Shown here piece by piece: positions 26,973 to 34,588 of a DNA stretch of 64,000 nt; position 1 is the first letter of the stretch; each line of letters starts with the position of its first letter. A program made the position numbers and the translations under genes. Source of the stretch: Entomomonas moraniae (lineage in GTDB: Bacteria > Pseudomonadota > Gammaproteobacteria > Pseudomonadales > Pseudomonadaceae); assembly GCF_003991975.1 (NCBI RefSeq), contig NZ_CP029822.1, forward strand, positions 2,753,648 through 2,817,647, in the 5' to 3' direction. The notes under the pieces were generated by a model. That model did no database searches. It was not told the origin of the DNA and saw only the letters and a program-made list of their open reading frames with translations.

Positions 26973-28012
26973 GATAAAAGCGTATTGGTTAGGTATTTAT
27001 CAAAAAAGGCTGCGCTAGTATTAAAATAACGTTTAGCTTCTGGTGAGTCAGGTATCATCAAATATTGAGCATGAGAAAGCCCTTCTAATACTATTAAGTC
27101 TGCAATACTTCCTGCATCGCGTAGCTTTAAATGCATTCTAATGGTATTGCTTAAGAAGAGATCTCGTGTTCCTGTTACGAGTAATGTGGGAGGAAAGCCT
27201 GCTACATTACCATAAATGGGAGAAAGTAATGGCTCTTTCAGGTCATGGCCATTAGCGTAAAGTTTGGCTGCATCTCCTAACCAGCCGTCATAGCTCACCA
27301 AGACATTATCAATGCCTTCATGGGTAAAATAAGAGTCACCTGTTTTAGTTAAATCTGTCCAAGGTGTTCCGACTACAATAGCCGCGGGCATGGGTAGATT
27401 ATTTTCTTTAATTTTAAGCATCAGCGCTAACGTCATGCCACCCCCAGTGGAGGTACCAAACACACCAATATTTTTTGCTGGGTAGGTTTTTAATAATGCT
27501 TGATAGGCTGCCAATGCATCATCTATTGCCGCAGGAAAAGGGTGATCGGGTGGCATACGGTAATCGATAGAGAAAACTTTAATTTTTCCATAGCCTGCCA
27601 TCATGATGGCTTCATCCGTCCCTGCTTCTCCGGGGTTTAAGACATAACCCCCACCGTGTAGGTGAAGTAAAACGCGGTGCGCATTGTTAGCTGCTATTTG
27701 CTGCGGTGTAATGATAAAACTGGGTACACCTGCAAGTTTTGTTGATTCAACGCTGACATGCATTTGCTCACGTAAGGCCGGCAGTTTTTTAATCGTGTCA
27801 TGCGCGAGTTGATTAACCCATTGTTTCCATGCTTGTGGTGTTTTAGGGTGCTCATTCCAATCAGGAAATGGTTGCTCTGACACCAAAGGTTGTATTTCTT
27901 GGCTGACCGTTGCAGGTGTTGGAAAGTGTTGTATGTTAATAAGCTGTGCTTGGGCACTTACCAAGTTGCTGGCGCAGGCAAGTAAGAGTAAATATATTGG
28001 TTTAAGCTTCAT
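26966..28012 (-). CDS. Alpha/beta hydrolase, hormone-sensitive lipase type, secreted
   Basis: A 348-residue esterase with a signal peptide (about 1-20, LACASNLVSA). The oxyanion-hole motif HGGG is at 119-122, the nucleophile Ser188 lies in GTSTGGG, and the acid is in VTGTRDLFLSN with His in LEGLSHAQY. This is the HSL (family IV) carboxylesterase pattern. Export suggests action on small esters in the periplasm; the substrate is unknown. It is the last gene of a leftward group with a cyclophilin-like protein, another hydrolase and an MFS exporter, spaced 11 bases from the former. Confidence 0.85.
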   Translation of the reverse strand: MKLKPIYLLLLACASNLVSAQAQLINIQHFPTPATVSQEIQPLVSEQPFPDWNEHPKTPQAWKQWVNQLAHDTIKKLPALREQMHVSVESTKLAGVPSFIITPQQIAANNAHRVLLHLHGGGYVLNPGEAGTDEAIMMAGYGKIKVFSIDYRMPPDHPFPAAIDDALAAYQALLKTYPAKNIGVFGTSTGGGMTLALMLKIKENNLPMPAAIVVGTPWTDLTKTGDSYFTHEGIDNVLVSYDGWLGDAAKLYANGHDLKEPLLSPIYGNVAGFPPTLLVTGTRDLFLSNTIRMHLKLRDAGSIADLIVLEGLSHAQYLMIPDSPEAKRYFNTSAAFFDKYLTNTLLSK

Positions 28013-28023
28013 CCTGTGCTCCT

Positions 28024-28467
28024 TTAATCCATCCGCTCTAAGGTTACGGTAATATTTTGTTTAAGTGCAGCTAATTGCTCTTTACCTGATACGATGGTAC
28101 CTAGTGCATAGACGCCATTTGCTTGGCCATAACCTTTATATAATAAGGCTAAATTACCCCAAGACGCATAGTAGGTGAAATCACTCTGAGTGGTTTTAGC
28201 CAGTGGTGTTTCTTGCAGTATTAGCTTGTTAGGTAAATAAGCAATTTTTTCAGTACGGGCAAAGTCAGATAACGCCAATGAAAGAGGAAGCTGATTAAGT
28301 AATTGTCGACTGGCGGAGTTATCAAACAGCGCAATAATAATGGGCTGCTGATTAATGTTCATTTTAATATGGGCTAGCGTTTTTGTTGATGGCGTATTGG
28401 CGTAACTATGCAAACAAAATACCATGAGTAGGCTGGAGAGCAGTATTTTATGACGTAACTTAATCAT
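28024..28467 (-). CDS. Cyclophilin-like fold protein, secreted
   Basis: About 147 residues with a signal peptide (to about residue 24, MVFCLHSYA). The mature part resembles the bacterial cyclophilin-like fold family: IKMNINQQPIIIALFDNSA, LPLSLALSDF, ASWGNLALLYKGYG and ALGTIVSGKEQL. These proteins share the fold but lack proven prolyl isomerase activity. ATG 28467 with GAGG five bases upstream is preferred; the longer reading would begin with TTG at 28482. It lies between two exported hydrolase genes, 24 bases after the larger. Confidence 0.78.
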   Translation of the reverse strand: MIKLRHKILLSSLLMVFCLHSYANTPSTKTLAHIKMNINQQPIIIALFDNSASRQLLNQLPLSLALSDFARTEKIAYLPNKLILQETPLAKTTQSDFTYYASWGNLALLYKGYGQANGVYALGTIVSGKEQLAALKQNITVTLERMD

Positions 28468-28491
28468 AGCGTCCTCTTTCAATATGGCTGA

Positions 28492-29547
28492 CTATTGCTG
28501 TAAGTTTTGTTTAAAGAAGTGGGTTAATTTGTCAAAGGGAATTAAGTTGACTCGATCGTATAGATCAACGTGGCCAGCCCCTTTTACATAATAAAGTTCT
28601 TTAGGTTCTGCGGCGCGTTTATAAGCATCTTCACTAAACTCTTTTGAGTGCGCTTGGTCTCCTGTAATAAATAGCAGTGGGCGAGGAGAGATAGTTTCTA
28701 TGTCATTGAATGGATAGAAATTCATGAATTTAACGTTACTGGTTAAAGTTGGATGAGTGGTCAGCTCAGGCGATTGGCCTTTCGGTGTAAACTCACCCCG
28801 TGGTGTACGGTAAAAATCAAAAAATTCACGCTCAATTGGGCTAGAGTTTTCATTGATTTCATGCACAGTACCGCTGGTGTAAAGTGTTTTGCCCCCAGTA
28901 AACTCAACATAGCGTTGCTCAGCAGCTTGGGTAATGATTTGTTTTCTTTGTTCTAGGGTTAAAGAGTGATTAAGTGCATCGCGATTGGCTGCCCCCATGT
29001 CATACATGCTGACGGTAGCAATGGCTTTTAGGCGAGGATCAATTTTGGCGGCACTGATGGCAAAACTACCACTACCACAAATACCAATCACACCAATACG
29101 TTCTTTATTAATAAAGGGGCGTGTACCTAAAAAGTCTACCGCTGCGCTAAAGTCTTCTGCATAAATATCAGGAGAAACAGCATTGCGTGATGTTCCCTCA
29201 CTTTCACCCCAAAATGAAAGGTCAATGGCTAAAGTAACAAAGCCTTGCTCGGCCATTTTAGTGGCGTAGAGATTAGCACTTTGCTCTTTAACAGCCCCCA
29301 TTGGGTGGCCAATAATAATAGCAGGGTATTTTTCTCCTTCTTTCATCGCTTTTGGCATAAATAAATTACCGGTTACCTTCATGTTGTATTGGTTTTTAAA
29401 GATAACAGTTTGTTTTGTAACACGTTCACTTTGATAAAAGTTATCAGCTCCGTTTGACATGTCTTGCCCCCTTGCAGTAAATGATAAAATAATTCCCATG
29501 ATGACCATCCATATGGTGATGAGGGATAAATTAAGGTGTTTTTTCAT
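28492..29547 (-). CDS. Alpha/beta hydrolase, dienelactone hydrolase/YcjY type, secreted
   Basis: A 351-residue hydrolase with an N-terminal hydrophobic signal (about 8-24). The block YPAIIIGHPMGAVKEQSA, the nucleophile elbow GICGSG with Cys157 in the Ser position, an acid in FITGDQAHS and His in GAGHVDLYDR give a Cys-Asp-His triad. A Cys nucleophile is seen in dienelactone hydrolases and in this YcjY-like group, so it is not a mutation. The substrate is unknown. It is grouped with the NepI-like exporter (38 bases upstream) and two further exported proteins. Confidence 0.82.
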   Translation of the reverse strand: MKKHLNLSLITIWMVIMGIILSFTARGQDMSNGADNFYQSERVTKQTVIFKNQYNMKVTGNLFMPKAMKEGEKYPAIIIGHPMGAVKEQSANLYATKMAEQGFVTLAIDLSFWGESEGTSRNAVSPDIYAEDFSAAVDFLGTRPFINKERIGVIGICGSGSFAISAAKIDPRLKAIATVSMYDMGAANRDALNHSLTLEQRKQIITQAAEQRYVEFTGGKTLYTSGTVHEINENSSPIEREFFDFYRTPRGEFTPKGQSPELTTHPTLTSNVKFMNFYPFNDIETISPRPLLFITGDQAHSKEFSEDAYKRAAEPKELYYVKGAGHVDLYDRVNLIPFDKLTHFFKQNLQQ

Positions 29548-29585
29548 GGATAAGCTCCTTGATTAGTCTCGTAAGATGGTGAGTT

Positions 29586-30794
29586 TTAGAAGGGTTTCCC
29601 CGTGATTGTGTTATACAGTGAAAAGCTTAACTTCATCACCAAAATAGCCAATAGCATAATGCTAGCGGCACTGATAAAGAGACCCCCACTACCAAAGTGA
29701 TCAAATACCAAGCCGCCCATCGCTGCGGCTAAACCAATAGAAAACTGAATAGCCGCAACGCTAAGCCCACCCATTAGTTCAGCCTTATCGGCCAACGTGC
29801 GAGTAATCCATGTTGACCAGCCCACAGGAATAAAGCCAAATAGAAGCCCCCAAAACACAACCATTACTGTGTTACTTGTTATGTGATGTGGCGTGAAAAA
29901 TAAACTCAGGGCAATGATAGCTAAGAGTAAATGTACTGTAATCATGGTAGGTTTGAAGTAGCGCCCTAAAAAGAGCCCCGCGATGAAAGTTCCTACACAG
30001 TTTGCAATACCGAAAATCAGTAGCATCAAGGTAAGTTTGGTTGAGGTCAGCTGTAAATTAAATTGTAAAAAAGGTCTTAGATAACTAAAGAAAACATGAT
30101 AACCACCATAGCTTAGAATGGTGCCGATAATACCTACCAATACCCATGATTGTTTTAACAAATCAAACATGGTACGAAAACTATTGCCTGCTTGTGCGGG
30201 TAGTGACGGCAGTGATACCAATTGCCAGATAAGCGCGGCTAACCCCATCGTAGCAGAAAGGATAAAAACATTGCGCCAACCGATTAAATCACCTAAATAA
30301 CTTGAAAGGGGAAGAGCAATGATGGTAGCGACGGACACCCCTGCATAAACAATACTCAGTGCGCGGGGTACATCTTTTGGTGGTGCAAGTTGTAAAGTAA
30401 CTGCTGATGCCATTGACCAAAAACCACCCACACAAATGCCTAGTAACCCTCTGCCTATAAGCATCACCCCATAATTAGGTGCAAATGCTACCATCAGATT
30501 TGAGGCAATAACCATTGCAGAGAAACATAATAAAATAAGCTTGCGGTTAATTGTTTTTGTGAGGGGGGAAAGTAATAAACTGGTTATTACAGCAAATACA
30601 CCCACCATGGTAATGCTCTGACCTGCCACCCCCTCACTAATGTTTAAGTCGTGAGCGATTGGGGTTAATAAACTGATAGGCGTGAACTCTGCGGCAATTA
30701 AACTGGTGACCCCCATAAATAAAGAAAAAATAGCTGACCAATAGGCTTGTTTAGGTATTGAAGGATTTAAAGTGATTTTTATTGCTTTAGCCAT
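29586..30794 (-). CDS. MFS exporter, NepI-like
   Basis: Twelve-helix transporter of 402 residues. It resembles E. coli NepI, a purine ribonucleoside exporter, by eye: the long block around LLTPIAHDLNISEGVAGQS, a GRGLLGICVGGFWSMASA motif, IGWRNVFILSATMG and FIPVGWSTWITRTLADKAE are closely matched. NepI relatives also include sugar and drug exporters, so the substrate is not certain. It is divergent from a LysR-type regulator across 126 bases and leads the hydrolase group, which suggests the LysR protein controls it. Confidence 0.82.
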   Translation of the reverse strand: MAKAIKITLNPSIPKQAYWSAIFSLFMGVTSLIAAEFTPISLLTPIAHDLNISEGVAGQSITMVGVFAVITSLLLSPLTKTINRKLILLCFSAMVIASNLMVAFAPNYGVMLIGRGLLGICVGGFWSMASAVTLQLAPPKDVPRALSIVYAGVSVATIIALPLSSYLGDLIGWRNVFILSATMGLAALIWQLVSLPSLPAQAGNSFRTMFDLLKQSWVLVGIIGTILSYGGYHVFFSYLRPFLQFNLQLTSTKLTLMLLIFGIANCVGTFIAGLFLGRYFKPTMITVHLLLAIIALSLFFTPHHITSNTVMVVFWGLLFGFIPVGWSTWITRTLADKAELMGGLSVAAIQFSIGLAAAMGGLVFDHFGSGGLFISAASIMLLAILVMKLSFSLYNTITGKPF

Positions 30795-30859
30795 GTTTTT
30801 ATAAATACTCGATTAAGATATGCTGTTTTAATTCTAATTACATGGCATATGAATAACAA

Positions 30860-30897
30860 ATACCTATATTTTATGGTATATAATGCTTTTTAAGCAT
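30860..30897. promoter_or_regulatory. Likely LysR operator between nepI-like and lysR genes
   Basis: In the 126-base divergent gap, ATACC and GGTAT form a dyad (30860-30864 with 30875-30879) that contains a T-N11-A pattern (30861 and 30873), the usual LysR box. A second perfect repeat, ATGCTT/AAGCAT with a three-base loop (30883-30897), lies just before the lysR ribosome site. Function as an operator is inferred from position. Confidence 0.5.
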
Positions 30898-30920
30898 GGG
30901 CAAAATTTGTAGAGGATTTT

Positions 30921-31814
30921 ATGGATATCCGAGTGTTAAGGTATTTTCTAGCTGTAGCTAACGAGGGAAGTATTACAGCTGCTGCAAATGCGCTATATTT
31001 AACGCAGCCAACGTTATCAAGACAATTAAAAGAATTAGAGGAAGAGTTAGGTAAAAAGCTGTTTCATCGCAGTAATCAGCGTATTAGTTTAACTGAGGAA
31101 GGTATTTTATTACGTAAACGTGCTGAAGAAATCTTAGAGCTTGTACACAAAACCAAGGCGGAGTTTGTCGATTTAGATGAAACTATTAGTGGTGATATTC
31201 ATATCGCCTGTGGTGAAACAGAGGTAATCAGCTACATTGCGCGTATTGCTAAAGAGATGCGAGCGCAATATCCTAGAATACGTTTTCATTTTTACAGTGG
31301 TAATGCTGAATACGTTACAGAAAAATTAGATAAAGGGCTTATTGATTTTGGCATTGTAATAGAGCCTGTCGATGTGTCGAAGTATTATTATCTTGATATG
31401 CCTAGTCAAGATACATGGGGATTATTAATGCGTAAAGATAGTCCATTAGCCAATCATGAAACTATAAGCGTTAAAGATTTATTACCGTTACCTATTATTT
31501 GTTCAAGGCAGTTAATAACTGAAACTTCATCTAAAAATCATGTGAATAATTGGTTTGGTGATCATGTTGTAAAGCTTAATATTGTTGCCACGTATAACTT
31601 GATTTTTAATGCAGCAGTTCTTGTAAGAGAAGGGGTGGGTTATGCCATTACCCTTGATAAATTGGCCAATACCAGTGAAGAAAGTGAAATATGCTTTAAG
31701 CCATTTTCACCTAGACTTACTTCTGGCCTTAATATTATTTGGAAAAAGGATCAGGTATTTTCTAAGGCGAGCGAGTTATTTTTGAGGAAAGCCAAAGCGC
31801 TTTGCCAATCATAA
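30921..31814 (+). CDS. LysR family transcriptional regulator
   Basis: A 297-residue regulator with an N-terminal winged helix-turn-helix (MDIRVLRYFLAVANEGSITA, then ALYLTQPTLSRQLKELEEEL, residues 1-60) and a periplasmic-binding-like effector domain (about 90-295). The start has AGAGGA upstream. It is divergent from the NepI-like exporter and followed after 32 bases by a YhdH-type reductase, so either may be a target. The effector is unknown. Confidence 0.88.
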   Translation: MDIRVLRYFLAVANEGSITAAANALYLTQPTLSRQLKELEEELGKKLFHRSNQRISLTEEGILLRKRAEEILELVHKTKAEFVDLDETISGDIHIACGETEVISYIARIAKEMRAQYPRIRFHFYSGNAEYVTEKLDKGLIDFGIVIEPVDVSKYYYLDMPSQDTWGLLMRKDSPLANHETISVKDLLPLPIICSRQLITETSSKNHVNNWFGDHVVKLNIVATYNLIFNAAVLVREGVGYAITLDKLANTSEESEICFKPFSPRLTSGLNIIWKKDQVFSKASELFLRKAKALCQS

Positions 31815-31846: not shown

Positions 31847-32851
31847 ATGTCATTTAATGCTATTTTATTAGAAAAAAATGAAACAAGTGGATTTACAGCT
31901 TCTATTAAAGTCCTGTCAAAAGAGACGTTATTACAACAACAGGGTGATACATTAATAAAAGTTCAATATTCTAGTATTAACTATAAAGATGCCTTAGCGC
32001 TCACTAATAAAGGGCCTGTTGTTCGATCATGGCCTATGGTGCCTGGTATTGATGGTGTTGGGGTAGTAGTTAAGTGTGATAGTGGACGTTATAAAACTGG
32101 CGATCAGGTTATTCTAAATGGTTGGGGTTGTGGTGAAAATCATTGGGGTTGTTTGGGACAATATGCTTATTTACAATCAGGTTGGTTAATTCCACTACCT
32201 GATAAGTTTACTCCTCAACAAGCCATGGCGATGGGTACGGCGGGTTATACGGCAGCGCTCTGTGTGCAACGTATTATTGAGCATGGTGTGAAACCAGAAC
32301 AAGGCAGTGTTTTGGTTACAGGCGCTTCTGGTGGAGTAGGGTCGGTGGCAATTGCGTTGCTTACCAAATTGGGTTATCAAGTAACAGCGGCTACTTCGAA
32401 AACAGGAGAGGTTAATTATTTAAAACAATTAGGTGCGGTTGATTTTATCGATAGCCAAGCTTTTAAAGGAGCCGGAAAGCCATTGCAAAAAGAGTGCTGG
32501 TCTGCTGCTATTGATGTATTAGGTTCTCATGCGTTGGCTAATGTGTGTGCACAAATAAATTATGGTGGCATAGTGGCAGCTTGCGGCTTAGCGCAAGGGT
32601 TGGATTTTCCGACAACCGTCGCTCCTTTTATTTTAAGAGGGGTAACTTTAGCAGGTGTAGATAGTGTAATGGCTTCTTATGATAAGCGTTTAATCGCATG
32701 GAATCTTTTGGCTAAATATATTGATAGTGGCTTACTTAATCAAATTGCTAAAACTATTCCTTTAAGTGAGTGCATGGAGGTTGCTAATCAAATGATAGCA
32801 GGACGAATTAAAGGGCGATTTATTGTGGATGTTAATGTAAGTAGTGAGTAG
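31847..32851 (+). CDS. YhdH/AcuI-type acrylyl-CoA reductase
   Basis: Zinc-independent medium-chain reductase of 334 residues. The N-terminal catalytic domain has YSSINYKDALALT, VPGIDGVGVV and GWGCGENHWGCLGQYA. The Rossmann motif is TGASGGVGSVAIALL near residues 161-175. Members reduce acryloyl-CoA to propionyl-CoA with NADPH and protect from acrylate; other enoyl substrates are possible. It is probably cotranscribed with the preceding lysR gene and ends at a clear terminator. Confidence 0.87.
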   Translation: MSFNAILLEKNETSGFTASIKVLSKETLLQQQGDTLIKVQYSSINYKDALALTNKGPVVRSWPMVPGIDGVGVVVKCDSGRYKTGDQVILNGWGCGENHWGCLGQYAYLQSGWLIPLPDKFTPQQAMAMGTAGYTAALCVQRIIEHGVKPEQGSVLVTGASGGVGSVAIALLTKLGYQVTAATSKTGEVNYLKQLGAVDFIDSQAFKGAGKPLQKECWSAAIDVLGSHALANVCAQINYGGIVAACGLAQGLDFPTTVAPFILRGVTLAGVDSVMASYDKRLIAWNLLAKYIDSGLLNQIAKTIPLSECMEVANQMIAGRIKGRFIVDVNVSSE

Positions 32852-32875: not shown

Positions 32876-32920
32876 ACTCCCATGAATGGTTTAAAAATAA
32901 TATCATGGGAGTTTTTTTAT
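32876..32920 (+). terminator. Terminator after the YhdH-type gene
   Basis: A perfect ten-base stem ACTCCCATGA/TCATGGGAGT (32876-32885 with 32903-32912), followed by seven T residues. It sits in the short gap between the reductase and the convergent carbonic anhydrase remnant. Confidence 0.85.
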
Positions 32921-33577
32921 TATAACTCAACGATTTGACGGCCATTAAGTGGTTGTGGTGGTCGGTTATTTTTACTATTTAATAAGGTAGTAAGTTCTTG
33001 TATTTGCTCCTTTGACATTTTTGTGAATTGCTTCATTACTATCCAAATAACGCCCTCTGAGCATGGGGGAGTAGTTAATGATCCGCTGTATCGATAATAA
33101 TGTGTATCTTTTGGAAGTAATGTTTCAAGTTGAAGAGTCTCTTCTATACGATTAACATCATTAATTCCTTTGGGCGATAGATTAATAATTTTATTAATCG
33201 TTGGGTTTGCTTCCCCTACTGTAGCCATGACAGCAACAACGGCTAATTGTCCTTCTTTATTAGTATGTACAAAGTGCATTTCTATAGGATAAGAATTTCC
33301 ATTAAGGAGATTTTCACTGGGTGTGTGAAAGTGAAACTGTTCCATTGTGAAACTTTGCCCGTCAATATTTATTCCATCGCTATTTTTTGTATTTATTTGG
33401 ATCATGAATATCGATAGGGAACTGGTTTTTCCCCGTTTTACACATTGCCCAATCAGGGCGTAGATCTTCCCAGTTTTGCGGTGCTCCTTTGCCATTATAA
33501 GACCAATGTTCTTCTGCAATAGTTGAATTAACTAAAGATATGAATAATACAGATAAGAAATAACCTTTAAATTTCAT
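32920..33577 (-). pseudogene. Broken alpha-carbonic anhydrase gene
   Basis: Two overlapping leftward frames together make an alpha-carbonic anhydrase. The upstream part (33577-33380) has a signal peptide and HWSYNGKGAPQNWEDLRPDW with CKTGKNQFPIDI. The downstream part, in the next frame, has the zinc ligands in FHFHTPSEN and HFVHTN, plus SLTTPPCSEGV. Removing one A from an A6 run (33383-33388) would join the frames. Even then the stretch between PIDI and FHFH is about 28 residues shorter than in normal enzymes, removing core strands. The enzyme would hydrate CO2 in the periplasm if intact. I judge it inactive; assembly error is possible for the frameshift but not the gap. Confidence 0.83.
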
Positions 33578-34005
33578 TTACAATCTCCGATGCGCTAGCG
33601 CTATATATTGCTTTGATATTAAGGTTTACAGGATACGATTTAAAAAAAGTTGTACTATGCAATAAATTATGGTCGCGTTCTTTTATACTTTTTAACTATA
33701 AAAATTCGAAAGAAGTAGGCGATTTGAGAAAATTAAAGACTAAACCAAATGATCAACAGATCAAGCCAGTAAAGATAGTCTGCTATTGAGGGATTACATA
33801 TGTATGAAGTTTGGCTATCTATAAACTAACAAAAATAGTCTCAATATGATTAATGACATTTTGTGTTGGTTTATGTAACTAATAAGATTAATAATAGTAA
33901 AAAATGACAAAAAATGTCAGGCAATGAAATTTTTTTTGGGGGAGAAAAAAAAAGGTTTTTTAATAACATGTTGAAATTAATTGATTTATTGTTTTTTATT
34001 AAAAG
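33578..34005. other. Upstream regulatory region of pilA
   Basis: About 430 bases with no credible gene. It holds the promoter of the carbonic anhydrase remnant at one end. Toward pilA it has TGTCA-type repeats that fit PilR sites, including the perfect dyad TGACA/TGTCA at 33906-33920 and a further TGACA at 33854-33858. The rest is AT-rich sequence in which I see nothing more. Confidence 0.5.
33906..33920 (+). promoter_or_regulatory. Candidate PilR binding site upstream of pilA
   Basis: A perfect inverted repeat, TGACA-N5-TGTCA, centred about 95 bases before the sigma-54 promoter elements. PilR of P. aeruginosa binds TGTC-containing sites at similar distance upstream of pilA. No pilS or pilR gene is in this window. 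Confidence 0.5.
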
Positions 34006-34022: not shown

Positions 34023-34099
34023 TACTATATAATTAGTCAGAAGGCAGATACAGGCAGTAAATGTCTTTGATTAAATCAAAAGTATATTGGAGAAATCAC

Positions 34100-34588
34100 A
34101 TGAAAGCAATGCAAAAAGGTTTTACATTAATCGAATTAATGATCGTAATCGCAATTATCGGTATTTTAGCAGCGATTGCTATCCCAGCTTACCAAGATTA
34201 TATCGGTCGTTCTCAAATGGCTGAAGCATTAAGCTTAGCTTCTGGTCAAAAAGGTGCAGTGGCTGAGTACTATAGTTCTAATACTGCTTGTCCAGATAAT
34301 GCAAAAACAAACTATGAAAATGGTGGTATTGCTAAAAAATCACAAATTTCTGGTAAATATGTTCAAGAAGTAACTGTGGGTAGCGGTGGTAGTACTATTA
34401 TAATTTCTGGAACGACTAGTGCAACATCAACATGTGATATTAAAGCAAAAATGAGATCCGCTAATGTTGCGCAAGGTATTATGGGCAAAACTTTAACATT
34501 AGGTATGGTTCCTACTTCAGGTGCTTTCCAATGGGGTTGTACAAGTGATGCTGATAACAAATTCTTACCAGCTACTTGCCAAAAATAA
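34100..34588 (+). CDS. pilA: Major type IV pilin PilA
   Basis: Main pilus subunit of about 162 residues. The leader MKAMQKG is followed by [20 protein letters not shown], with mature Phe1 and Glu5 intact for PilD. The start at 34100 has GGAGA six bases upstream; an ATG 13 codons earlier would give an overlong leader. Cysteines in [15 protein letters not shown] near the end form the expected C-terminal disulfide loop, and two more cysteines lie in the middle. A sigma-54 promoter precedes it and a terminator follows. The minor-pilin operon is about 27 kb away. The codon composition is less AT-biased than its flanks, as for a highly expressed gene. Confidence 0.93.

Follow-up and report, generated by a model that had tools for sequence, protein, structure and literature searches.

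A probable single-deletion pseudogene of a second, redundant α-carbonic anhydrase in Entomomonas moraniae

The locus described here belongs to the family of bacterial exported α-carbonic anhydrases (PF00194), with which it shares a signal-like N-terminus and the sequences QFHFHTPSE, EMHFVH and GSLTTPPC. We take QFHFH and E-HFVH to be the zinc-ligand motifs of this family, and the histidine of its Asn-Gly-His stretch to be the proton shuttle. Relative to intact members, the copy in Entomomonas moraniae is missing about 28 core residues, including Asn-Gly-His, and its two halves lie in different reading frames. A resident α-carbonic anhydrase encoded elsewhere in the same genome is of the same family and 42–45% identical over the shared C-terminal part, but it is intact, its neighbourhood is common to two genus-mates and it falls on a separate tree branch from the broken copy. 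The α-carbonic anhydrases of Acinetobacter apis and the Erwiniaceae are among the highest in identity to the broken copy (among the best 80 of 260 matches); they differ in being full length, and are too distant to be strain- or genus-level orthologues. Entomomonas is an insect-gut-associated genus, and our literature search found no paper joining it with carbonic anhydrase. In Brucella, variants of a bacterial carbonic anhydrase gene are reported to affect CO2 requirement and are tied to CO2 dependence (PMC6915039), whereas E. moraniae keeps other intact carbonic anhydrase genes.

A carbonic anhydrase gene divided between two reading frames

Within the window (the whole 64,000-nt stretch analysed, from contig NZ_CP029822.1), the ORF list and profile matches place an α-carbonic anhydrase gene at 32920–33577 on the minus strand, divided between two frames (Table 1). 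The C-terminal frame is open for 199 codons (32920–33519) and matches PF00194 with 127.7 bits against a curated cut-off of 27, residues 39–197 aligning to profile positions 64–251. It keeps all three zinc-ligand histidine positions (QFHFH, E-HFVH) and an intact GSLTTPPC. The N-terminal frame (33380–33577, 65 aa, with its stop at 33380) contains the conserved early part of the enzyme and, judged by eye, a signal-like start. This frame alone has no Pfam match, and it is recognized by a profile that we built from 37 α-carbonic anhydrase sequences. By these scores, the homology of both frames to α-carbonic anhydrase is far beyond chance. The solved structures nearest to the feature are carbonic anhydrases (best 6im0, 3e-47); NCBIfam has no family for either the broken or the resident copy.

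Table 1. Coordinates of the broken gene and of features around it
Feature	Positions	Strand	Basis
acuI-type acrylyl-CoA reductase	31847–32851	+	full length; NF051456, 457.3 bits against a cut-off of 440
C-terminal fragment, α-carbonic anhydrase pseudogene	32920–33405	-	MIQIN...QFHFHTPSE...EMHFVH...GSLTTPPC, 161 codons and stop; PF00194 7.8e-37; 37-sequence profile 2.2e-68 from 33405
A6 run (T6 on the plus strand)	33383–33388	.	inside C-terminal-frame homology; not the lesion
Junction of the probable single deletion (frame-shifting; net loss of about 80 nt by comparison with relatives)	33403–33407	-	maximum of the junction scan; residue counts in relatives
N-terminal fragment, α-carbonic anhydrase pseudogene	33407–33577	-	start codon, signal-like N-terminus (by eye), ...HWSYNG...CKTGKNQFPIDI; 37-sequence profile, i-Evalue 1.1e-17
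Shine-Dalgarno-like GGAGA	33584–33588	-	six bases 5' of the original start codon (by eye)

The copy thus combines clear homology to intact genes with a disabling lesion, as expected of a pseudogene; it has no uninterrupted single reading frame, and without the Asn-Gly-His stretch its core is incomplete. These features agree with a preliminary description of the locus as a broken α-carbonic anhydrase. That description also assigned the zinc ligands to one frame and a signal peptide to the other: the PF00194 match confirms the first assignment, while the second holds only as a signal-like start seen by eye. A 10-base palindrome, GCGCTAGCGC, is visible at 33592–33601, just upstream of the pseudogene start. 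Counts of predicted promoters and terminators between 32700 and 34150 (7 and 1) are close to those in shuffled sequence (7.5 and 0.7).

One junction for the frameshift and the missing core

The C-terminal-frame homology, as delimited by both Pfam and the 37-sequence profile, begins at 33405 with the residues MIQIN; the A6 run follows 17 nt downstream. A scan of possible break positions reaches 76.26–76.65 bits at 33403–33407 compared with 65.67–66.43 bits inside the run, a gap of about 10 bits, and so places the junction 15–19 nt upstream of the run. The residues that the two frames encode in this interval point the same way. IQINTK, in the C-terminal frame, scores 10.18 bits at its own place in the profile, a value reached by only two of the 85,950 hexapeptides in the six frames of the window, the IQINTK segment itself counted. 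The rival reading in the N-terminal frame, DPNKYK, scores -0.04 when placed without gaps; its best position in the stretch gives 0.64, and of 20,000 control hexapeptides 18,249 do at least as well. Homology start, junction scan and hexapeptide scores together indicate that a single junction underlies both the frameshift and the internal loss.

The size of the loss can be estimated from relatives. PIDI ends at 33407 and IQIN starts at 33402, with 4 nt left between them in the window, whereas 25–37 residues span this gap in the 116 assessable loci among the 120 collected, and exactly 28 in 90 of the 116; the roughly 28 missing residues of the preliminary description are borne out. An ancestor with 28 residues would imply a net loss of 80 nt, a figure that rests on distant relatives of at best 52% identity over near-full length. 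Since 80 is not divisible by three, this deletion would at once remove the core and shift the frame, and a single out-of-frame deletion would account for both defects together. Two families of direct repeats and six inverted pairs, all short, lie near the junction; one 10-nt inverted pair (33041–33050 and 33393–33402) adjoins it, which we take as chance.

We consider it very probable that the locus is the pseudogene of a second, redundant, exported α-carbonic anhydrase, made by one deletion of about 80 nt. This deletion would have joined the PIDI codons to the IQIN codons, taking out some 28 core residues with the conserved Asn-Gly-His and leaving the remainder out of frame. Ribosomes beginning at the original start codon would then reach a stop at 33380 after 65 residues, ahead of the zinc ligands. 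The gene was presumably active once and probably yields no working product now.

The preliminary description proposed two independent lesions, a one-base slip in the A6 run and, independent of it, the in-frame loss of some 28 residues. The run does lie close ahead of the stop that ends the N-terminal frame, and both frames are open across it, but a break there costs about 10 bits, the C-terminal-frame homology has already begun 17 nt upstream, the rival-frame residues DPNKYK are no better than chance, and two events are required where one suffices. We regard this sequence of events as very unlikely. That the gene is really intact and the break an artefact of sequencing or assembly is a shade more doubtful still: in favour of this, the two fragments are well conserved outside the junction, but the absence of about 80 nt is unlike a homopolymer miscount, and the genome is a single contig with 100% completeness and 0.09 contamination.

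The C-terminal frame could in principle be translated alone, for example from 33519 or 33405, as a cytoplasmic zinc protein of 161–199 aa. It preserves all three zinc-ligand positions and GSLTTPPC within 199 open codons, but it has no signal-like start, no N-terminal part and no Asn-Gly-His stretch, and that stretch is missing in none of the 116 assessable relatives (120 collected), so that we give the proposal scarcely any credence. A domesticated fragment, in which the shortened C-terminal frame would still be made for a non-catalytic zinc-binding role, seems equally remote. We also discarded a naturally short form of the enzyme: alignment with complete enzymes, a check suggested in the preliminary description, reveals none among the 116 assessable of 120 collected loci, which are a subset of the family.

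Outside the lesion there is little sign of decay. The window departs from its relatives at one of the 35 near-invariant columns that it still covers, and among 105 relatives 83 depart at none, 18 at one, three at two and one at three. This single change fits a recent lesion; the lesion looks recent, or little further decay has followed it, and continuing constraint could be an alternative reading of the near-complete conservation. The lost part itself holds three near-invariant columns, the N, G and H kept by 101, 104 and 103 of the 105 relatives.

Relatives and surroundings of the broken copy

No close relative of the broken copy was confirmed by a first scan of genome contigs with the window frame. 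A second scan, using an alignment, confirmed 260 matches, of which the best 80 were kept, at identities of 52% or less. Among these best 80 of 260, the highest values belong to Acinetobacter apis (52%) and other Acinetobacter (49–50%, with A. gerneri at 50%), then Vibrio diabolicus at 50% and the Erwiniaceae Pantoea, Erwinia and Rosenbergiella at 47–50%; near-full-length identity is at most 52% among the matches listed. In a class-level search 83 of 369 genomes match, the own genome counted. Leaving that genome aside, matches over most of the query are at most 48% identical, and shorter pieces reach 49% (109 residues) and 56% (65 residues). Plasmid matches number 195 records, all below 60% (42.9–46.2% among the matches listed).

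The broken copy, whose branch is long (1.14), joins six Erwiniaceae rows at 99/99 in a careful 50-row tree, and in a quick 104-row tree it falls in no starred (supported) set. We name no firm donor lineage, since the first tree favours Erwiniaceae, the second gives no supported group and the window branch is long. A tree constrained to unite the broken copy with the genus's resident copies is 29.45 lnL worse (p-AU 0.0317, moderate), and with Commensalibacter added to that clade the deficit is 16.87 lnL (p-AU 0.0379); the AU test presumes a group named before any tree, and here the group was named after the quick tree had been seen. A recent duplication of the resident gene is disfavoured by the 45% identity and by the p-AU of 0.0317. 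The broken copy thus probably did not arise by recent duplication of the resident one, and a separate acquisition appears likely from these comparisons, possibly jointly with the neighbouring acuI.

Of the four Entomomonas genomes compared, one of them (G003) 77% complete, E. moraniae is the only one in which the broken copy was seen. For acuI, G001 and G002 contain matches of just 20–30% identity; the 77% complete G003 contains none. The pilin and serA genes downstream are syntenic with all three genus-mates, and the genes preceding the pilin differ in each. Five stretches from genus-mates, the syntenic pilin/serA block among them, contain no carbonic anhydrase remnant: the C-terminal piece has no match there at E up to 10, and the best N-terminal match (E 0.017 over 14 residues, in L065) is not at the syntenic place. 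For comparison across the genus, the published ANI values of Entomomonas sp. E2T0 are 75.34% against E. moraniae and 88.40% against E. asaccharolytica (PMC9872594), and the two longest DNA matches of the window with G002 are 79% identical.

Several further observations concern this region. After acuI, at 32876–32912, a perfect inverted repeat of 10 bp, its arms separated by a 17-nt loop, runs into T6; it appears terminator-like by eye and is outside the loop limit of 8 used in our terminator scan. The pilin gene (34061–34588) is single in the window and is present as two adjacent copies in G001 and G002 (L062, L063), where large RHS-like repeat proteins, named by eye, are encoded nearby. Hydrolase, MFS-like and LysR genes form a block (27020–31765) that adjoins the pseudogene; it matches G002 at about 1.867–1.872 Mb, far from the pilin/serA place near 1.005 Mb in that genome, and a separate G003 contig matches part of it.

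Remaining carbonic anhydrases and the meaning of the loss

The resident α-carbonic anhydrase (L001, at G000:C1:3108345) is intact, with 264 aa, a signal-like start, NGH, QFHFHTPSE, EVHFVH and GSLTTPPC. It lies between an nrdG-like and a GNAT-like gene (both named by eye), and G001 and G002 each have one α-carbonic anhydrase gene, between the same neighbours. Across 57 relatives, the own genome counted, 11 have an α-carbonic anhydrase, and E. moraniae alone has two matches. A β-carbonic anhydrase with CADAR and HSNC motifs is also encoded in E. moraniae and in two of the three other genus genomes; in G003, which is only 77% complete, neither an α- nor a β-type gene was seen. L001 groups with the α-carbonic anhydrase of Commensalibacter intestini (L129), an acetic acid bacterium of another class (100/99), a grouping that suggests gene transfer among gut bacteria.

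The preliminary description had raised a loss of periplasmic CO2 hydration and advised looking for other carbonic anhydrases in the genome. That search finds the intact α-type gene with its signal-like start and the β-type gene, and the proposed loss, as far as gene content can speak to it, is not supported. Because the resident α-carbonic anhydrase remains, the gene for an exported carbonic anhydrase has not been lost from the genome, and the broken copy would be dispensable. Its likeliest history is that of a redundant, separately acquired copy that would have been inactivated fairly recently.

We read the locus as, most likely, an ordinary pseudogene whose enzyme was redundant, and not as a lost ability. 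Its importance is limited, and lies first in correcting the tempting claim that an exported carbonic anhydrase gene has gone. It also reminds us that one event can produce both a frameshift and the loss of internal residues close to it, and it offers a small example of a redundant periplasmic enzyme that an insect-gut bacterium has probably gained and then lost.
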